Below, piece by piece: positions 754 to 13,414 of a stretch of 64,000 nt of DNA. Location of the stretch: positions 1-64,000 of the IMG/VR virus record IMGVR_UViG_3300008259_004660; one strand, written 5' to 3'. This DNA comes from a virus. The notes beneath the pieces were generated by a model. It made no database searches and was not told the DNA's origin. It worked only from the letters and a program-made list of their open reading frames with translations. The translations under genes were made by a program, and so were the position numbers. Position 1 is the stretch's first letter, and each line of letters opens with the position of its first letter.

Positions 754-837
754 GGGCGTGTGATGGAATGGCAGACATGTCAGTCTTAGAAGCTGATGCT
801 TAATTGCGTATGGGTTCAAGTCCCTTCGCGCCCACCA
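754..837 (+). tRNA. tRNA-Leu (anticodon TAG)
   Basis: The acceptor stem GGGCGTG pairs with CGCGCCC (one T-G pair). The anticodon arm TCAGT-CTTAGAA-GCTGA has TAG at positions 34-36, followed by a long class II variable arm. The T arm contains GGGTTCAAGTCCC. The discriminator is A and CCA is encoded. It reads CUN leucine codons. First gene of a tRNA-Leu trio behind a strong promoter. Confidence 0.93.
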
Positions 838-1142
838 TTTTTTTCTGGTCGTAAATACTTCAGGTCTCGTAAACCTGTTTGCTTAGTAGTGATGAATTCT
901 TACCGTAGAGCTAACGGTGGAAAAAACGAGTACCGTCTACTATCTCGACATTATGTTTTGGATAGGGAGTACATAGTTAGATGAAGTCATGAAAAGAGAA
1001 CCTAGCTGCTGGGTCATACCGCGAGATTACCAACTCAACAAGCAGTCAGAAAAGAAACAAGCACTGATATTGGGGATGACTCACCTGCTGATGAACCAAT
1101 AGCGCGGAGACGCAGGATCCTACCGCCAGTGCTTCACTTTAT
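838..1142 (+). ncRNA. Unexplained 305-base stretch between two tRNA-Leu genes, possible structured RNA
   Basis: No convincing protein gene lies here; the one long frame starts inside the upstream tRNA. Several local inverted repeats are visible: CAGGT/ACCTG with a 7-nt loop near 862-878, ACCGT/ACGGT near 903-919, ATTGG/CCAAT near 1070-1100, GCGG/CCGC near 1102-1125, and AAGCACTG/CAGTGCTT enclosing about 1058-1136. It should be co-transcribed with the tRNAs from the promoter at 705. It does not show the signature blocks of RNase P RNA, 4.5S RNA or a group I intron as far as I can see. It may be a phage RNA or a decayed tRNA/intergenic segment. Confidence 0.4.
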
Positions 1143-1228
1143 GGCCGTGTAGGAGAATTGGTATATCCAGGGGTCTCAAACACCCCCGTCGCAAGACATT
1201 GTCGGTTCGAGTCCGACCTCGGCTACCA
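1143..1228 (+). tRNA. tRNA-Leu (anticodon CAA)
   Basis: The anticodon stem-loop GGGGT-CTCAAAC-ACCCC gives anticodon CAA (reads UUG). It has a long variable arm and the T arm GTCGG-TTCGAGT-CCGAC. The acceptor stem GGCCGTG/CTCGGCT has a terminal G-T pair and one T-T mismatch. CCA is encoded at 1226-1228. Second of the tRNA-Leu trio. Confidence 0.9.
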
Positions 1229-1293
1229 TTATAATAAGCGAAAAACTAAAAATTTTCTGCGTTTTAGTATGTCGGTTCGATACTTATTAGTAT

Positions 1294-2184
1294 ATGAATA
1301 ACGAATACATTATTGAAGTAGTAAAAAATTCTTCATCAATTGCAAATGCAATGGAAAAGCTCAATGAAGGAAGAAGATTTGTAAAAAGAAAAATTGAGGA
1401 ATTATCAATTGATACAAGTCATATGACCGGTCAAGCATGGACTAGTGGAAAAACCGTAATGCAAGATTCCCGACTATCCAAGTATAGTAAGGAAGAAATT
1501 TTTTCTGAAGATTCTCCCTGCTCAAATTCTTATGTTAGAAAATTGGTTTTGAAGAATAAACTAAAAGAATACAAATGCGAGTCCTGTGAATTAGTCAATT
1601 GGAAAAATCAAAATATAAATTTACAATTGGACCATATCAATGGAAATAGGAAGGACAATAGATTGGAAAACTTGAGATGGCTGTGTCCGAACTGCCATTC
1701 CCAGACATCCACATTCTGCTCCAGAAATGTAAAAAGCAAAAGATATTCCGATGAACTTATAATCAGTTTATGTAAGAAGCACGGAAATGTCCGTGGGGTG
1801 GTAGAAGAACTTGGATGCAATCCTCGTTTATATGGAAGAATAAAACGACTTGCCAAAGAAAATGGAATAGAGTTTCCAAATCAATATGGTCAGGGAAAAG
1901 TCGCAAGAGAAAAACAAACCAAAGCCGCAAACGAAAAGCAAAAAAGTGAATATTCTGCCAAGAATAAATCAAAAGAATGGCTGGAAAAAATAGGGATGGC
2001 GAACAGAAGAGTTGAGAGACCATCCAAAGAGGACTTGACAAAACTGATAGAATCTGTTCCAATAGAGACCATAGGAAAACAATATGGAGTATCTGGAAAC
2101 GCAGTAAGAAAATGGTGTAAAACTTATGGAATACAGCCAAAACCAGTAGGGTATTGGCAAAAGAAACAATTTGGAAAAATTTAG
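1294..2184 (+). CDS. HNH homing-type endonuclease with C-terminal HTH
   Basis: 296 aa. A zinc-ribbon HNH core lies at about residues 90-140: CESC, then LDHINGN with the catalytic His and Asn, then LENLRWLCPNCH. The N-terminus looks like a small helical DNA-reading segment and the C-terminus (about 250-285) has a helix-turn-helix, 'IGKQYGVSGNAVRKW'. This layout is typical of free-standing homing endonucleases of phages, which cut DNA near their own site and spread by repair. It sits between tRNA-Leu(CAA) and tRNA-Leu(TAA), a common location for such elements. The catalytic residues look intact, in contrast to the related protein at 41115-41729. Confidence 0.87.
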   Translation: MNNEYIIEVVKNSSSIANAMEKLNEGRRFVKRKIEELSIDTSHMTGQAWTSGKTVMQDSRLSKYSKEEIFSEDSPCSNSYVRKLVLKNKLKEYKCESCELVNWKNQNINLQLDHINGNRKDNRLENLRWLCPNCHSQTSTFCSRNVKSKRYSDELIISLCKKHGNVRGVVEELGCNPRLYGRIKRLAKENGIEFPNQYGQGKVAREKQTKAANEKQKSEYSAKNKSKEWLEKIGMANRRVERPSKEDLTKLIESVPIETIGKQYGVSGNAVRKWCKTYGIQPKPVGYWQKKQFGKI

Positions 2185-2188
2185 ATAT

Positions 2189-2276
2189 GGCCGTATGGTG
2201 GAACTGGATATACACTGGAGACTTAAAATCTCCCGCCTGAAAAGGATTGAGGGTTCAAATCCCTCTGCGGCTACCA
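2189..2276 (+). tRNA. tRNA-Leu (anticodon TAA)
   Basis: The anticodon arm GGAGA-CTTAAAA-TCTCC carries TAA (reads UUA). Class II variable arm, T arm with GAGGG-TTCAAAT-CCCTC, acceptor GGCCGTA/TGCGGCT and encoded CCA at 2274-2276. It starts 4 nt after the stop of the HNH gene. Third tRNA-Leu isoacceptor in the cluster. Confidence 0.93.
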
Positions 2277-5614: not shown

Positions 5615-6094
5615 TTAATTTTTGAATTTGTAGATCATAACATCTCCATCATAATTGTGAAATGCAACTTCAATTAGTCGTTCCACAATTCTCCAATCTC
5701 CACCGCCAAGCCCACATCCCATAAGATACGGAAATCCTACATTTGGAATAGGAAAATCATTCTCACATTCAATAAGATAATTCTTCATTCCTTCAAGTGA
5801 ATCGTATAATGCATTGTAATTTGTTTGGCGTTTTCCTTTTCCATATAAAGTTTGACCATATAAGTTAAAAACTTTTTTGATCTGTCCGTCCAGATGGCAA
5901 AAACTATAACTTCCAAGAATGGCTTTACCATCCTTATAAGCCATAGTATCAGCATGATATGCTTTGGGATACATTTCCTTGATACTTTTAGCTATACCTG
6001 CTCCAAATGTATTTTGGCAATTAGCCTGATGTCCAATTACATCAACATCGTCGGCGGTTAATAGATTACCGTCCTTATAGATTAGACTTTTCAT
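5615..6094 (-). CDS. Macro domain protein (ADP-ribose-1''-phosphate phosphatase-like)
   Basis: 159 aa, a single macro domain over its full length. 'VIGHQANCQNTFGAGIAKSIKEMYP' is the ADP-ribose-binding block (N-x-x-G-x-G-I-A), and 'GFPYLMGCGLGGGDW' is the second ligand loop (hGxGxxGG). This layout is closest to the Poa1p/ALC1-like branch, which acts on ADP-ribose-1''-phosphate or binds free ADP-ribose. It could recycle RNA-repair by-products, remove ADP-ribosylation or sequester NAD-derived signals. It has its own minus-strand promoter. The phosphoesterase, cREC and SLOG genes of the same strand lie just upstream (6769-8282). Confidence 0.83.
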   Translation of the reverse strand: MKSLIYKDGNLLTADDVDVIGHQANCQNTFGAGIAKSIKEMYPKAYHADTMAYKDGKAILGSYSFCHLDGQIKKVFNLYGQTLYGKGKRQTNYNALYDSLEGMKNYLIECENDFPIPNVGFPYLMGCGLGGGDWRIVERLIEVAFHNYDGDVMIYKFKN

Positions 6095-6101
6095 GCACTT
6101 T

Positions 6102-6130
6102 ATTGAACATCAAATATACTGATATGTCAA
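6102..6130 (-). promoter_or_regulatory. Minus-strand promoter of the macro domain gene
   Basis: On the minus strand TTGACA (6130-6125), 17-nt spacer, TTCAAT (6107-6102), then the ATG 7 nt later at 6094. The same near-leaderless geometry is seen for plus-strand genes. Confidence 0.6.
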
Positions 6131-6166
6131 GGTGTAATAGGTATTTTCTATATATTTATTGTTAAT

Positions 6167-6760
6167 ATGAGCTTACCTATTATTCCCGGACCAAATAACG
6201 AGTTGATTACACAATCACTGGCCGTACCTCCGCAATATCCAACATTTGCCGATAGTTCTTCATTTGCAGAGACGGCTTCTTTTGTCAAGCACTATTGGGG
6301 AACATGGTATAGTACAGATATACAAACGGCGTCTTTATTAAATACTGCATATCCAGTTACAGTTAATACTGTTGGGGGAGATTTTGATGGATTTTACATC
6401 TCTGGTAGTAATGGTAGCACGGTCAGTGGAAGTACAATCGTTATACCAAAAACAGGCACATACGATTTTCAATTTTCTCTTCAATTACATAACACAGGAG
6501 GCGGTGGAGCTTCTTCCGCAATCAACATATGGTTGGTAGTAAATGGATCCGCTGTACCATATTCAAATACACAAGTGTCTGTGAATGCCAACTCTCCATA
6601 TGTTGTGGCCGCGTGGGACTTTATGGGATCGTACAATTCTGGAGATAAGCTTCAATTGATGTGGTCAACGACACATGCAAATAACAGAATTGAAACACTA
6701 CCGTCGGCATCTCCACACCCAGAAACACCATCGGTAATATTCACTATAATGCAACTATAA
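6167..6760 (+). CDS. Putative virion decoration/fibre protein with IPGPNNELIT N-terminus
   Basis: 197 aa. The N-terminus SLPIIPGPNNELITQSL repeats the tag of 3979-4419. Residues about 50-197 look like a C1q/TNF-type jelly roll: 'TVNTVGGDFDGFYISG', 'IVIPKTGTYDFQFSLQL', 'INIWLVVNGSAVPYSN', 'SYNSGDKLQLMWS'. Such domains form trimers at fibre tips or capsid surfaces in phages. ATATTTAT ends 7 nt before the ATG, in line with late expression. Specific position in the virion unknown. Confidence 0.6.
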   Translation: MSLPIIPGPNNELITQSLAVPPQYPTFADSSSFAETASFVKHYWGTWYSTDIQTASLLNTAYPVTVNTVGGDFDGFYISGSNGSTVSGSTIVIPKTGTYDFQFSLQLHNTGGGGASSAINIWLVVNGSAVPYSNTQVSVNANSPYVVAAWDFMGSYNSGDKLQLMWSTTHANNRIETLPSASPHPETPSVIFTIMQL

Positions 6761-6768
6761 TGTCCTAA

Positions 6769-7419
6769 TTATTCGGACTCTCTACGATGATCTGGGGCAA
6801 ATCCTTTTCTTGGAGATAATTCTCTTACTATTTCATTCCATTCAACGGGGCGTCTTTTCCACTCCCAACCAACGTCAAGGCGTTTGATTGATAAATCTTC
6901 TTTGAGATTTCTATGGCAATGCCCATGTATGTTGTATGCACCCTTTCCAATTCTATTCCACGAAGCAATTGGATAATGAGTTAATACGCACATAACATCA
7001 TCAATCCATACTTCTGCGTAATGTCCAAGAAAAACAAATGGACTGCTTGGATAGTTTAAAGGATAAATTTCAATATCATCCTCTAGAAGATCAAGCTGTT
7101 TGCGGCAGTCATCATAAAGAGCTTGTACACCTGCATTATGATTGCCCCAAATAAAATATTGCTGTTTGCATGGAATATGCACAACTCGTTTTGCATATGT
7201 GGTTGTGTTATCAAACGCACCAATTACAGCATCGCCAAGATTGAACACAATATCTTCTGGTCCAATATGTTCATTCATCATCTGCCATTGATGGTCGATG
7301 GCTTCATTGATGCTGCTATAATTGCGTGGACCGAGAATAAATGGCTTGTTATGACCAAGATGTAAATCGGAAACAAACCAAATCTTTTGGTCTTTGCTGT
7401 TTAGAGATATTCGCTTCAC
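6769..7419 (-). CDS. Calcineurin-like metallophosphoesterase
   Basis: 216 aa, GTG start overlapping the upstream TGA (GTGA). Metal-binding motifs in order: 'FVSDLHLGH' (D-x-H), 'DIVFNLGDAV' (GD), 'YFIWGNHNA' (GNH), 'CVLTHYPI' (H) and 'YNIHGHCHRN' (GHxH). The short form is like phage and bacterial phosphoesterases that act on small phosphodiesters or phosphoproteins. It is in an operon with the cREC and SLOG proteins, and the macro domain gene follows on the same strand. A role in cyclic-phosphate or nucleotide-signal turnover is plausible but inferred from context. One of three metallophosphoesterases in the window. Confidence 0.83.
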   Translation of the reverse strand: MKRISLNSKDQKIWFVSDLHLGHNKPFILGPRNYSSINEAIDHQWQMMNEHIGPEDIVFNLGDAVIGAFDNTTTYAKRVVHIPCKQQYFIWGNHNAGVQALYDDCRKQLDLLEDDIEIYPLNYPSSPFVFLGHYAEVWIDDVMCVLTHYPIASWNRIGKGAYNIHGHCHRNLKEDLSIKRLDVGWEWKRRPVEWNEIVRELSPRKGFAPDHRRESE

Positions 7420-7772
7420 TTGATTGTGCTCTTGAAGCTTTCAATATAAGACTTGATATTGACCTTACCAATTACGTTCATGCTATGCACTTCATATTCT
7501 GGAAATCTTAGATTGTTATTCATGCAATATTCCACAAGCCACTTGGCACAGTCCATACCTGTCTTTTCTTTGAACACTTCAGTGATTGGATGTTTGTTTT
7601 GGTCTTCAACCGACAAGTCGTGATCAAATGTCACAAAGTGTGGTAGTCCATGCTTTGTAATATAATCACAGAACTCTTTATAGCTTCGTACCACGGTCCA
7701 AGGACCAGATGGTAGATTCACCCAAGTGACTCCGTGAGGCAGTCTTTCGTCGTCTAGAAATAAGTTATACAT
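7416..7772 (-). CDS. cREC: cyclic-phosphate-processing receiver-like domain
   Basis: 118 aa from the ATG at 7772, chosen because it sits just inside the 3' end of the upstream gene and the domain begins at once (MYNLFLDDERLP). Receiver-like fold with acidic pair 'LDDERLP' and the signature 'FVTFDHDLS', which define the cREC family rather than two-component receivers. The family has been predicted from genome context to process cyclic 2',3'-phosphate RNA ends or related nucleotides in repair and conflict systems. It fits its neighbours: phosphoesterase, SLOG and macro domain. Confidence 0.7.
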   Translation of the reverse strand: MYNLFLDDERLPHGVTWVNLPSGPWTVVRSYKEFCDYITKHGLPHFVTFDHDLSVEDQNKHPITEVFKEKTGMDCAKWLVEYCMNNNLRFPEYEVHSMNVIGKVNIKSYIESFKSTIK

Positions 7773-8118
7773 AAATAATGATAGTATCTTTTTTGTGTTT
7801 TCTGGCAAGATTAATCGCACTCATTGTGCCTTTTGATTGTCCATCCCAAAAGGCAATTACCTTATCTGTGTATTGCATGATCTGCTCGTTGCGAATTGGA
7901 CCAGCGGCTTTACCGTGCTTATTCCAATCAGCAGGAAATTCTGTATATTTTAGTTTATATTCTTCTGCTAATCTTTTAGCCAACGAATCGACTCCACTTG
8001 CTCCGCCACTTACAATTTCATATGGAGAATATGTAAGATCCCTAAAGTATTTGAAAACATATCCTTTTACTTCATCATAATCATTATAATCTCTGCCACC
8101 AACAATTGCGAGTTTCAT
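7765..8118 (-). CDS. SLOG-type (YspA/DUF2493-like) nucleotide-binding protein
   Basis: 117 aa. 'KLAIVGGRDYNDYDEV' is the N-terminal Rossmann strand, 'EIVSGGASGVDSLAKRLAEE' the central GG-x-SGVD ligand loop, and 'NEQIMQYTDKVIAFWDGQSKGT' the C-terminal block, all typical of the DUF2493/YspA branch of the DprA/SLOG superfamily. Members are thought to bind or process ADP-ribose-like or other nucleotides. It overlaps the small gene before it by an ATGA and the cREC gene after it by 8 nt, so these are one translation unit. Confidence 0.78.
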   Translation of the reverse strand: MKLAIVGGRDYNDYDEVKGYVFKYFRDLTYSPYEIVSGGASGVDSLAKRLAEEYKLKYTEFPADWNKHGKAAGPIRNEQIMQYTDKVIAFWDGQSKGTMSAINLARKHKKDTIIIYV

Positions 8119-8358: not shown

Positions 8359-8386
8359 TTGACTTGAACGCGATGTTCGATAATTA
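8359..8386 (+). promoter_or_regulatory. Candidate promoter for the structured RNA and tmRNA
   Basis: TTGACT 8359-8364, 16-nt spacer, TAATTA 8381-8386. The start would be near 8393, about 25 nt before the structured RNA and 210 nt before the tmRNA. Confidence 0.5.
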
Positions 8387-8416
8387 TTGTTACTGTTCTT
8401 TGAATAATAATTTTTG

Positions 8417-8596
8417 AAACATGCAGGGTAGTTAAAAGGCCAGACTTTGGAAAAAGTTTGGTCATTCTTCAGCGACAATCCTAGTAGGCATCAACGCTAT
8501 ATGCTTGTATAAAATTGCCGAAGTCAAGAAGATAGGTCGAGTCACCCAAATGTGGTTCCGGTACCGAATGCCCTAACATCGGTCCCTGCATGTTTT
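8417..8596 (+). ncRNA. Structured RNA candidate directly upstream of the tmRNA
   Basis: A 12-bp perfect terminal stem, AAACATGCAGGG (8417-8428) with CCCTGCATGTTT (8584-8595), extendable by a G-T and a T-A pair, encloses about 155 nt. Inside are at least one long hairpin, GGCCAGACTT/AAGTTTGGTC (10 bp with G-T pairs), and a GGCA/TGCC helix near 8493-8522. The base composition is less AT-rich than flanking DNA and there is no open frame. The 3' strand of the stem ends 7 nt before the tmRNA begins. It could be an independent small RNA released during tmRNA maturation. I could not match it to a known family. Confidence 0.6.
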
Positions 8597-8602
8597 ATTT
8601 TC

Positions 8603-8996
8603 GGGCGCGTTCTTGGATTCTACTATATAGTATAGGTACAGGCCGCATGCACAGAGTCCAAAGTCTCTGTATAATACCCATTGGAAAAAATAAATGCTAA
8701 GAGAAATCTTGCAAAGGTATCTTTCCTAAGCGTTCGCAAGAATGCCGATGTTGAGATGCTAGCCGCAGCCTAATTAGTGCTGCCCGTTGTCCTTGTGACG
8801 CAGATAACAAGTCAACAACGTCAAACATCTGCTGGTCATTATAAGGCAGAGAGTCGGTAATAATGACGAGTCAATACAGAACTCTCAACTTCTGAATGGT
8901 GCTCTACCAAATTCAGTCGGATTATAAGAGATAAGCATGTATATGTTTGTGGTTATATTATACAGCACGCGGGTTCAACTCCCGCCGCGTCCACCA
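8603..8996 (+). ncRNA. ssrA: tmRNA (transfer-messenger RNA)
   Basis: 394 nt including encoded CCA. The acceptor stem is GGGCGCG/CGCGTCC with the third pair G-T (the alanine identity pair), the T arm is GCGGG-TTCAACT-CCCGC, and the 5' part has the tmRNA signature TTCTTGGATTC. A run AAAAAATAAAT precedes the resume codon GCT at 8696, as in E. coli (AAAAAATAGTC before GCA). The tag frame is 25 codons (8696-8770), begins AKRNLAKVS, ends VEMLAAA, and stops with TAA at 8771. The C-terminal LAA-type end fits ClpXP-directed degradation. tmRNAs are known in some large phages. Pseudoknot helices were not traced in full. Confidence 0.93.
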
Positions 8997-9105: not shown

Positions 9106-9822
9106 ATGAAGAATAAAATCCTAGTATTAATCACAGCACTTATTGCAGCAGTAGCAGTAAATGCTGCACCAGTAGCACTAAGTGCAAATGCAACATATCA
9201 CACCAAGTACTTTGACAAGGGCTTGGTTGCGTTCGAAGATGTTGCTGTTGCAGGAGCTACACTGGAAGTCTACAATTTTGTTGCAGGTGTAAATACCTTC
9301 AACACATTGAAGGACACCACAACTGGAAAGTATACTGCAAGTGCTGGCTTGTTCAAGCGCACTGATCTGTCGCTCGGCTACAAGTTCACATCGCCGTTGG
9401 CCAATCTAACATTGGGCGGTACATACAAGAACTTTGCCAAGAGCGTATCAAATCTTTCCAGCAACACTGAGCCATTTGCTCTATTGAATGGTACATTCTT
9501 TGGTACACGCGCTACGTGGGATGCACGCTATCGCAACGATCTAAAGAATCGCACCAACAACACCGAGGCAAATCTCCGCTTGCCATTTGGTTTCCAACAC
9601 CTCAAGTTGGTTCCAGCAGTTGGATACGGTTTCAACGACCTTGGTGCGGATACGATTGCTCAGTACAAAAATGCAAAGCAATATGCCGTCGTTGGCATTG
9701 GTTTGGGATATTACACAAAGTATGCCACATTGAATGTTGATTTTTCTCAACTACGTGATGGTTTGATTACCGCAGGAAACACAGTAAACAGTCTTTCTGC
9801 CGGTCTTTCTGTAAAGTTCTAA
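9106..9822 (+). CDS. Outer-membrane-type beta-barrel protein with signal peptide
   Basis: 238 aa. Signal peptide (KNKILVLITALIAAVAVNA, cleaved before APVAL), then alternating amphipathic beta strands ('DLSLGYKFTSPLANLTLGGTY', 'KLVPAVGYGF', 'YAVVGIGLGYYT') ending in the C-terminal Phe typical of outer-membrane barrels. No specific porin family recognised. A monocistronic unit with its own promoter and terminator. Codon use is richer in C/G third positions (AAG, CTG, CGC) than in neighbouring genes, suggesting high expression or recent capture from a bacterium. A phage-encoded envelope protein could alter host permeability or block superinfection. Confidence 0.7.
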   Translation: MKNKILVLITALIAAVAVNAAPVALSANATYHTKYFDKGLVAFEDVAVAGATLEVYNFVAGVNTFNTLKDTTTGKYTASAGLFKRTDLSLGYKFTSPLANLTLGGTYKNFAKSVSNLSSNTEPFALLNGTFFGTRATWDARYRNDLKNRTNNTEANLRLPFGFQHLKLVPAVGYGFNDLGADTIAQYKNAKQYAVVGIGLGYYTKYATLNVDFSQLRDGLITAGNTVNSLSAGLSVKF

Positions 9823-12298: not shown

Positions 12299-13414
12299 AT
12301 GAAAATTGATTTAGAGTCCATTGACAAAGAATCATTTATGGTTCATCAACATAAAATAGGAGAACACGAAGTAACACTTGTTCAACCTATCCACATTGGA
12401 GCGACTTGGAACAGGGGTAATCTTATATTTCGTTCCTCTGTTTGGGATAAAGAAGGCAATCCCGTATCTCTTTCTTTCAAGAAGTTTTTCAATTGGGATG
12501 AAAAGCCTGATATCGATCCTGCACCAGAAACTTTAGAAGGCGCAAAGCTTTTAGAAAAACTGGACGGATCTACTCTAATTATCTCTCGCTACAAGGGTAT
12601 TACAGTTATGCGTACACGTGGAACTGTAGATGCATATCAGCAAGCAAACGCCGACGAGCTTACATTTTTGCGTGAAAAGTATGATAAGTTTTTTGAATTT
12701 ATAGAAGCACAAGAAAACACTTCTGTTTCTTACATCTTTGAATGGTTATCACCATCTAACCGTATTGTATTGGACTACGGAAACGACCCAGATATGGTTT
12801 TAATCGGCGTGATATTTCACAACGATTATTCTATGATGTCACAAGATGGACTAAGCACTGTTGCATCACAGCTTCAGCTTCGTCGTCCAAAGCTTTATTC
12901 ATATGACTCTATTGAGGAGATGAAGACTAGCGTGGAAGCATTACGTGATCAAGAAGGTCTTTGTGTATATTACAAGGAAGAGCAGTGCATTCGTAAAGTA
13001 AAGAGCGCACACTATTTGTATCTTCATAGAGCAAAGAGTGAAATTTCTAGCATAGACAAAGTTATTGATGTGTATATTGATTGGTTCATGGAGCGTCATA
13101 AAATTTCGCCTGAAGCAACTGGATATCCTGATTTCTTCAAGTATCTTACTGAAAAGTTTGATTACGAAATCGCAACAATGGCGCAAGGTCACGCATCTCG
13201 TATCTGTGATGCTATGAAGGAAGTGAAAAAGATAATGGATGCTTTGGTTCTTTTTTCGTTCCGTCGTATCAATATTCCTCGTAAGCAAGCAGCAGCAGAA
13301 ATATTACAAGCGTATGGCAGCACAGGCAGAGCAGCTATTGTATTCAAGATGCTTGACGCGAAGTACATTGGTGCCGATGACTACAAGAAACTGCTATACC
13401 AAGTCCTCAAATGA
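12299..13414 (+). CDS. rnlA: T4 Rnl1-type RNA ligase
   Basis: 371 aa from the ATG at 12299; an earlier in-frame ATG lies inside the promoter. The nucleotidyltransferase motif I is 'LLEKLDGSTLI', with the AMP-accepting Lys at about residue 87. Motif III-like 'SYIFEWLSP', motif IV-like 'QEGLCVYY' and motif V 'RKVKSAHYLYLH' follow, all close to T4 RNA ligase 1. The C-terminal helical domain (about 240-371) is also Rnl1-like. In T4 this enzyme reseals tRNAs cut by host anticodon nucleases. It fits with the tRNA genes and with the macro/cREC/phosphoesterase genes at 5.6-8.3 kb. Confidence 0.88.
   Translation: MKIDLESIDKESFMVHQHKIGEHEVTLVQPIHIGATWNRGNLIFRSSVWDKEGNPVSLSFKKFFNWDEKPDIDPAPETLEGAKLLEKLDGSTLIISRYKGITVMRTRGTVDAYQQANADELTFLREKYDKFFEFIEAQENTSVSYIFEWLSPSNRIVLDYGNDPDMVLIGVIFHNDYSMMSQDGLSTVASQLQLRRPKLYSYDSIEEMKTSVEALRDQEGLCVYYKEEQCIRKVKSAHYLYLHRAKSEISSIDKVIDVYIDWFMERHKISPEATGYPDFFKYLTEKFDYEIATMAQGHASRICDAMKEVKKIMDALVLFSFRRINIPRKQAAAEILQAYGSTGRAAIVFKMLDAKYIGADDYKKLLYQVLK

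Follow-up and report, generated by a model that had tools for sequence, protein, structure and literature searches.

The window, a 64,000-nt stretch of viral DNA (positions 1–64,000 of the 184,824-bp IMG/VR record IMGVR_UViG_3300008259_004660), encodes a one-piece tmRNA on the plus strand at 8603–8996, carrying the tag AKRNLAKVSFLSVRKNADVEMLAAA and an encoded CCA. The gene was called by ARAGORN and matched Rfam RF00023 with 95.2 bits; phage-encoded tmRNAs are uncommon. A structured RNA of 179 nt (8417–8595, +) precedes it, and a U-rich linker (8596–8602, +) joins the two. Given the tmRNA call, the linker measures exactly 7 nt in the window; it is longer in some homologues.

Directly 3′ of the tmRNA, the product of a gene at 9106–9822 (+) is a 238-aa protein that has an apparent signal peptide, resembles a small outer-membrane barrel by eye and finds no match in Pfam or PHROG; in one related contig (L010), about 0.7 kb of other sequence interrupts the region 3′ of the tmRNA. 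Just upstream, an opposite-strand cluster (5615–8118, −) encodes Macro domain, calcineurin-like phosphoesterase, cREC_REC (a cyclic-phosphate-processing receiver) and YspA/SLOG proteins, and positions 12299–13414 encode an RNA ligase of the T4 Rnl1/tail-fibre-attachment family. Together, the cluster and the ligase suggest that RNA ends or nucleotide signals are metabolized close to the tmRNA. The three tRNA genes at 754–2276 (+) are all tRNA-Leu (UAG, CAA, UAA), and an HNH endonuclease gene (1294–2184) sits between them. No match among isolate phages was found for a large protein encoded in the window.

The original prediction had described a folded RNA of ~180 nt with a perfect 12-bp closing stem, internal helices and no reading frame, placed 7 nt before the tmRNA, and each of these points held. 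The closing stem P1 is formed without mismatch by AAACATGCAGGG (8417–8428) and CCCTGCATGTTT (8584–8595). The region 8417–8596 folds at −53.2 kcal/mol, compared with a shuffled mean of −39.8 kcal/mol (sd 3.9), which corresponds to a z of −3.43, and none of 200 dinucleotide shuffles folded as well. It contains no ORF of at least 60 aa, and stops interrupt every frame in every homologue of the RNA, ruling out a coding sequence within it. When the 605-nt precursor was folded, the RNA formed its own domain adjoining the tmRNA, with a P1 pairing probability of about 1.0.

The fold of the window's RNA type (type A) was derived by hand from an alignment of 13 distinct sequences, and the resulting type-A model R1 scores the window RNA at 188 bits. 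P1 and four arms, P2 to P5, meet in a five-way junction. All P1 cells of the alignment are paired (100%), and 5 of its 12 pairs change on both sides. The single-stranded junction J12 (UAGUUAAAA, 8429–8437; consensus UAGUYWAAA) is close to invariant in type A and leads into the P2 hairpin GGCCAGACUUU-GGAA-AAAGUUUGGUC (8438–8463), whose stem reads AGUCGU/GCGACU in homologue L048. The long P3 arm (8466–8532), which was supported by the alignment, covariation and RNAalifold, comprises a base UCUUC/GAAGA (8466–8470/8528–8532), the helices GAC/GUC (8474–8476/8523–8525) and GGC/GCC (8487–8489/8517–8519), and an apical hairpin CAA..UUG (8492–8507); variant forms include UCUCA/UGGGA with AAC/GUU in L048 and GGU/ACC in L002. 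Its internal loop, with an AGUA strand (8483–8486) and a GAA partner strand (8520–8522), is invariant across type A and recurs in both sequences of the second type described below. We take this loop to resemble the signature of a bulged-G (sarcin-ricin) module, its three-dimensional form being putative. Junction J34, UAGGUC (8533–8538), contains the UAGG strand between P3 and P4 that is invariant in both types. The remaining arms are the hairpins P4 (GAGUCAC-CCAAAU-GUGGUUC, 8539–8558; 4 of 7 pairs changing on both sides) and P5 (ACCGA(A)UG-CCCUAA-CAUCGGU, 8563–8583; 5 of 7), with the conserved loops CCRAAU/A and CCCNAA, respectively. A candidate pseudoknot between CCUA (8480–8483) and UAGG (8533–8536) was rejected, being lost in L023, L029 and L048. 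All these elements lie on the plus strand.

Among homologues, P1 changes in a compensatory manner (AAACAUGCAGGG/CCCUGCAUGUUU, AAACGUGUAGGG/CCCUACACGUUU and AAGUGUGUAGGG/CCCUACACGCUU). Covariation was quantified over 54 pairs in a model-fitted alignment of 15 distinct sequences, in which standard pairs fill 89.3% of the cells. Both sides change in 23 of the 54 pairs, a count reached by none of 500 shuffles, and the covariation score of 0.308 (0.172 in shuffles, again with 0 of 500 reaching it) falls to 0.075 or less once partners are slid by 1–3 columns. An unfitted MAFFT alignment gave the same picture. With no structure supplied, RNAalifold recovered P1, the P3 base, GGC/GCC, P4 and P5, with 17 covarying pairs. 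Since shuffles ignore kinship, a tree-aware null was added in which the substitutions of each column were simulated on a FastTree tree. Under this null, the covariance test on homologous phage loci found seven pairs significant at E < 0.05 (54 tests), distributed over four helices: two in P1, one in P3, three in P4 and one in P5. These occupy seven of the nine top scores among about 15,900 column pairs; none passes once every column pair is treated as a test, the set of 15 sequences being small. The weakest-supported elements are GAC/GUC, inner P2 and apical P3; a one-base indel shifts GAC/GUC out of register in the automatic alignments, and by eye the helix is consistent.

Indels in the homologues respect helices rather than codons. 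Covariation under the phylogenetic null, stops in all frames and this indel pattern all stand against a chance fold or a protein-coding remnant with no RNA at the locus, a reading that the covariation refutes and to which we give practically no credence. Evolution has kept the shape of the RNA rather than its letters.

The RNA belongs to a new family absent from Rfam. At gathering scores, Rfam 15 recovered only the tmRNA and two tRNAs from the window, and a search of the RNA region alone with E up to 10 returned a single chance match on the opposite strand (13.8 bits, with a cut-off of 80). For five variants (L080, L079, L048, L031 and L035), Rfam reported only the tmRNA, plus sub-threshold noise elsewhere. 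No model for RNase P, 6S, SRP or group I matched, in line with the original prediction, which had seen no RNase P, 6S, 4.5S or group I signature. Its suggestion of a new phage RNA gains support from this lack of any known class together with clear covariation, while another of its suggestions, a member of the large ornate phage RNA classes (GOLLD/ROOL-type), is not supported: there is no Rfam match, and the RNA is far smaller and has a single five-way junction. We found no description of the RNA in the open-access literature, most subscription papers lying outside that search.

Two further readings would make the RNA a known kind of device. Its multi-helix junction with invariant unpaired strands could mark it as an orphan riboswitch-like sensor that controls tmRNA output in response to a metabolite or the infection state, and a precedent exists in the marine phage Melnitz, where a glutamine riboswitch accompanies ssrA (PMC9004378). 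We regard such a sensor as improbable, with no known riboswitch family matching in Rfam and no terminator-like site or other expression platform found at the RNA; moreover, regulating translation initiation would be meaningless, since translation of a tmRNA does not start at the 5′ end. A self-cleaving ribozyme splitting itself off from the tmRNA would fit a compact conserved core beside a processing point; it is a very improbable reading, given that no Rfam ribozyme family matches and that tmRNA 5′ ends are already made by RNase P.

We then searched viral contigs for relatives using an exact 21-mer followed by gapped RNA-only patterns that did not require a tmRNA, and, in a complementary search, a pattern for the tmRNA tag only that did not require the RNA. 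The RNA was found in 39 distinct viral contigs, including the window: 34 carry type A and five (L079, L080, L082, L084 and L085), recovered by the tmRNA pattern alone, carry a second architecture, type B. In all 39 the tmRNA lies directly downstream (the L035 stretch stops inside the tmRNA, whose tag lies in another stretch of that contig, L081). In ten RNA-bearing records searched whole, no further copy was detected at E up to 10. The RNA–tmRNA unit is also present, in single copy, in a jumbo-sized phage record (L037, 297,258 bp). Type A and type B queries found no related leader among GenBank isolate phages. The only match in 84,980 cellular genomes (L086, a Syntrophomonadaceae MAG) fell in apparent coding sequence and was discarded as chance, as were matches of looser patterns located elsewhere, examples among many being L021, L022, L024, L038–L044, L046, L047, L049, L050, L054–L056, L059, L061, L063, L065, L066, L068–L070, L072–L075, L077 and L078.

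Type B occupies the same place as type A and cannot be aligned to it by blastn. Model R1 nevertheless matches type B, once with 40.8 bits (E 1.9e-9 within its record) and once with 23 bits (E 2e-4). The two types share the P3 arm with the AGUA/GAA loop, the strand RRAUAGG and a P4-like hairpin with CCGAA; one type B example of P3 reads AAC..AGUA-GGU..ACC-GAA-GUU with UCCC/GGGA. In type B, P1 differs, two hairpins rather than one precede P3, and P5 is missing. The folds suggest a circular permutation from A (one hairpin before P3, two after) to B (two, one), an idea that was rejected for having no sequence support. In the minimum-energy fold of the L080 precursor, the P1 5′ strand pairs with a stretch of the tmRNA instead; we read this pairing as chance because its complement is absent in L079.

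Upstream of the RNA lies a predicted promoter-like site, TTGACT-16-TAATTA (8359–8386, +), identified by consensus scan and alignment; the scan picks the same −35 with a 17-nt spacer and AATTAT. It is followed by a BoxA-like element, GTTCTTTGA (8395–8403, +), at the expected transcript start. Across 20 distinct aligned loci, TTGAC, a −10-like TANTTA at 16 nt (TATATT in L079) and GTTCTTTGA recur at constant distance; TTGAC is invariant in all homologues, including an RNA-less locus described below (L083), and GTTCTTTGA, itself invariant, always stands 31 nt after TTGAC. No other promoter-like site is conserved in homologues, and this one lies upstream of both genes, which supports the original placement of the RNA within the tmRNA precursor. 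The window holds GTTCTTTGA three times, the other two copies falling inside apparent coding sequence, so the element is not general to the promoters of this phage.

The E. coli BoxA consensus is GYTCTTTAANA, a gamma-proteobacterial form (PMC5725501). GTTCTTTGA matches GYTCTTTRA and is one position off the E. coli form. A (T)CTTTGA-type match occurs in 11 of 21 sampled Firmicutes 16S rRNA leaders, and the full GTTCTTTGA in one of the 21. A long untranslated transcript is an expected Rho substrate, which makes BoxA-type antitermination a reasonable interpretation. Given its fixed 31-nt spacing, GTTCTTTGA could instead be a promoter or start-site element rather than a BoxA.

These features bear on our main alternative, a cis-acting leader in which the fold and the BoxA-like element would govern how the tmRNA precursor is elongated, folded, stabilized or processed at its 5′ end, much as in rRNA leaders or structured antitermination RNAs. 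Several observations favor it: the RNA holds an obligate site between the transcript start and the tmRNA in 39 of 39 contigs, the BoxA-like sequence stands immediately before it, and the distance from GTTCTTTGA to the tag codon is nearly constant (284–295 nt) in both architectures. On the other side, no intrinsic terminator was found between the RNA and the tmRNA, and base pairing between the two was rejected, as the longest matches differ in nearly every homologue and no complementarity is conserved; thus, no cis expression platform is visible. Architecture B, moreover, swaps arms while the tmRNA remains unchanged. We see a cis leader as a possible but rather doubtful explanation.

Natural variants weigh on the same question. 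At the tmRNA locus of L083 (4106–4566) the RNA is absent, while the same upstream gene, TTGAC-31 nt-GTTCTTTGA and a tmRNA of the same family are retained, with GTTCTTTGA now 108 nt from the tag. The RNA therefore does not precede every tmRNA of the group. Because L083 keeps the promoter and the BoxA-like element without it, these two elements are part of the tmRNA gene; the RNA is optional, and the tmRNA gene can persist in its absence. The retention of promoter, BoxA-like element and tmRNA in L083 counts against a cis role: the tmRNA-processing leader that the original prediction had also raised is a possible function, but one that L083 shows to be dispensable.

The RNA types themselves are exchanged between otherwise related loci. 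Up to +61, L080 and L023 share 82.5% identity across 486 nt, and from +237 onward they agree at 90% across the initial 252 nt of the tmRNA; between these flanks, one carries type B and the other type A, with the core kept. Since the flanks are conserved and the RNAs cannot be aligned by blastn, the RNA was exchanged, or is diverging, as a cassette. Conversely, two nearly identical phages (96.6%), represented by L071 (1083–1500) and L060, share the same RNA and differ in the 5′ strand of the tmRNA acceptor stem (TGTGGCCGCAC in L071, ATGGGCGTGTTC in L060), a sign of recombination inside the tmRNA. With the same RNA beside a changed acceptor stem, changes in the tmRNA sequence are not mirrored in the RNA. 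The RNA is a real, optional and exchangeable cassette within the tmRNA leader.

The reading we adopt, tentatively and with confidence just short of even, is that the RNA is co-transcribed with the tmRNA, that RNase P frees it by cutting where the tmRNA begins, and that it then works in trans as a phage RNA in its own right. One promoter, with a predicted start at ~8393–8396, would transcribe both RNAs into a precursor ordered as BoxA-like 5′ end, five-way-junction RNA, U-rich linker and tmRNA. The BoxA-like element would probably recruit host Nus factors, allowing the ~600-nt untranslated transcript to escape Rho. RNase P makes the mature 5′ end of tmRNAs; its cut at 8602/8603 would release a compact RNA of ~200 nt, presumably stable, with its ends sealed by P1. 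Once freed, the RNA would act in trans, most likely through contact with a protein of the host or the phage, with the invariant junction strands and the P3 AGUA/GAA loop as putative binding sites. In favor of this trans-acting RNA we count the covarying fold, its formation as an isolated domain in the precursor, the single conserved upstream module common to RNA-bearing loci and the tmRNA-only L083, the persistence of the tmRNA gene in L083, the lack of a visible cis platform and the exchangeability of the cassette. Against it, the RNA was never found away from the tmRNA (39 of 39), which a cis role would explain and a trans role would not require.

A bolder and unlikely version holds that this is a new functional class of RNA, which phages pair with their tmRNA to govern ribosome rescue during infection; it might, for instance, sequester SmpB, a ribosome factor of the host or an enzyme of RNA decay, and its architectures would be swapped as alleles in an arms race against the host. 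In any case, a leader RNA that is conserved and yet can be lost or swapped offers a handle on why large phages carry a ribosome-rescue RNA, and a covariance model built from 13 distinct sequences is ready for this Rfam-absent family.

Broadly, the family belongs to a known kind, that of structured RNAs sharing a transcript with the stable-RNA genes of phages. The T4 stable RNAs C and D (species 1 and 2) are likewise small structured RNAs co-transcribed with the T4 tRNA cluster; they stand in another genomic context, sequence comparison here covering Rfam and the GenBank phages. GOLLD and ROOL, much larger than the 179-nt RNA described here, share with it the character of ornate RNAs of phages or prophages and often lie near tRNA genes. 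Both are homo-oligomeric RNAs, as established by cryo-EM (PMC12286853). In rRNA operon leaders, BoxA mediates Nus-factor antitermination (PMC5725501, PMC10250234), and here, too, a BoxA-like GTTCTTTGA heads a long untranslated stable-RNA transcript; unlike in rRNA leaders, the element stands right at the 5′ terminus and is followed by a distinct, conserved folded domain, and Nus binding is putative. The OM43 phage Melnitz, like Pelagibacter phage Mosig and Prochlorococcus phage AG-345-P14, has a glutamine riboswitch linked to its ssrA (PMC9004378), which is similarly a structured RNA tied to the tmRNA gene of a phage. Melnitz, however, combines a known glnA motif with a two-piece tmRNA, whereas the locus described here pairs a one-piece tmRNA with a ~180-nt five-way junction that matches no Rfam family.
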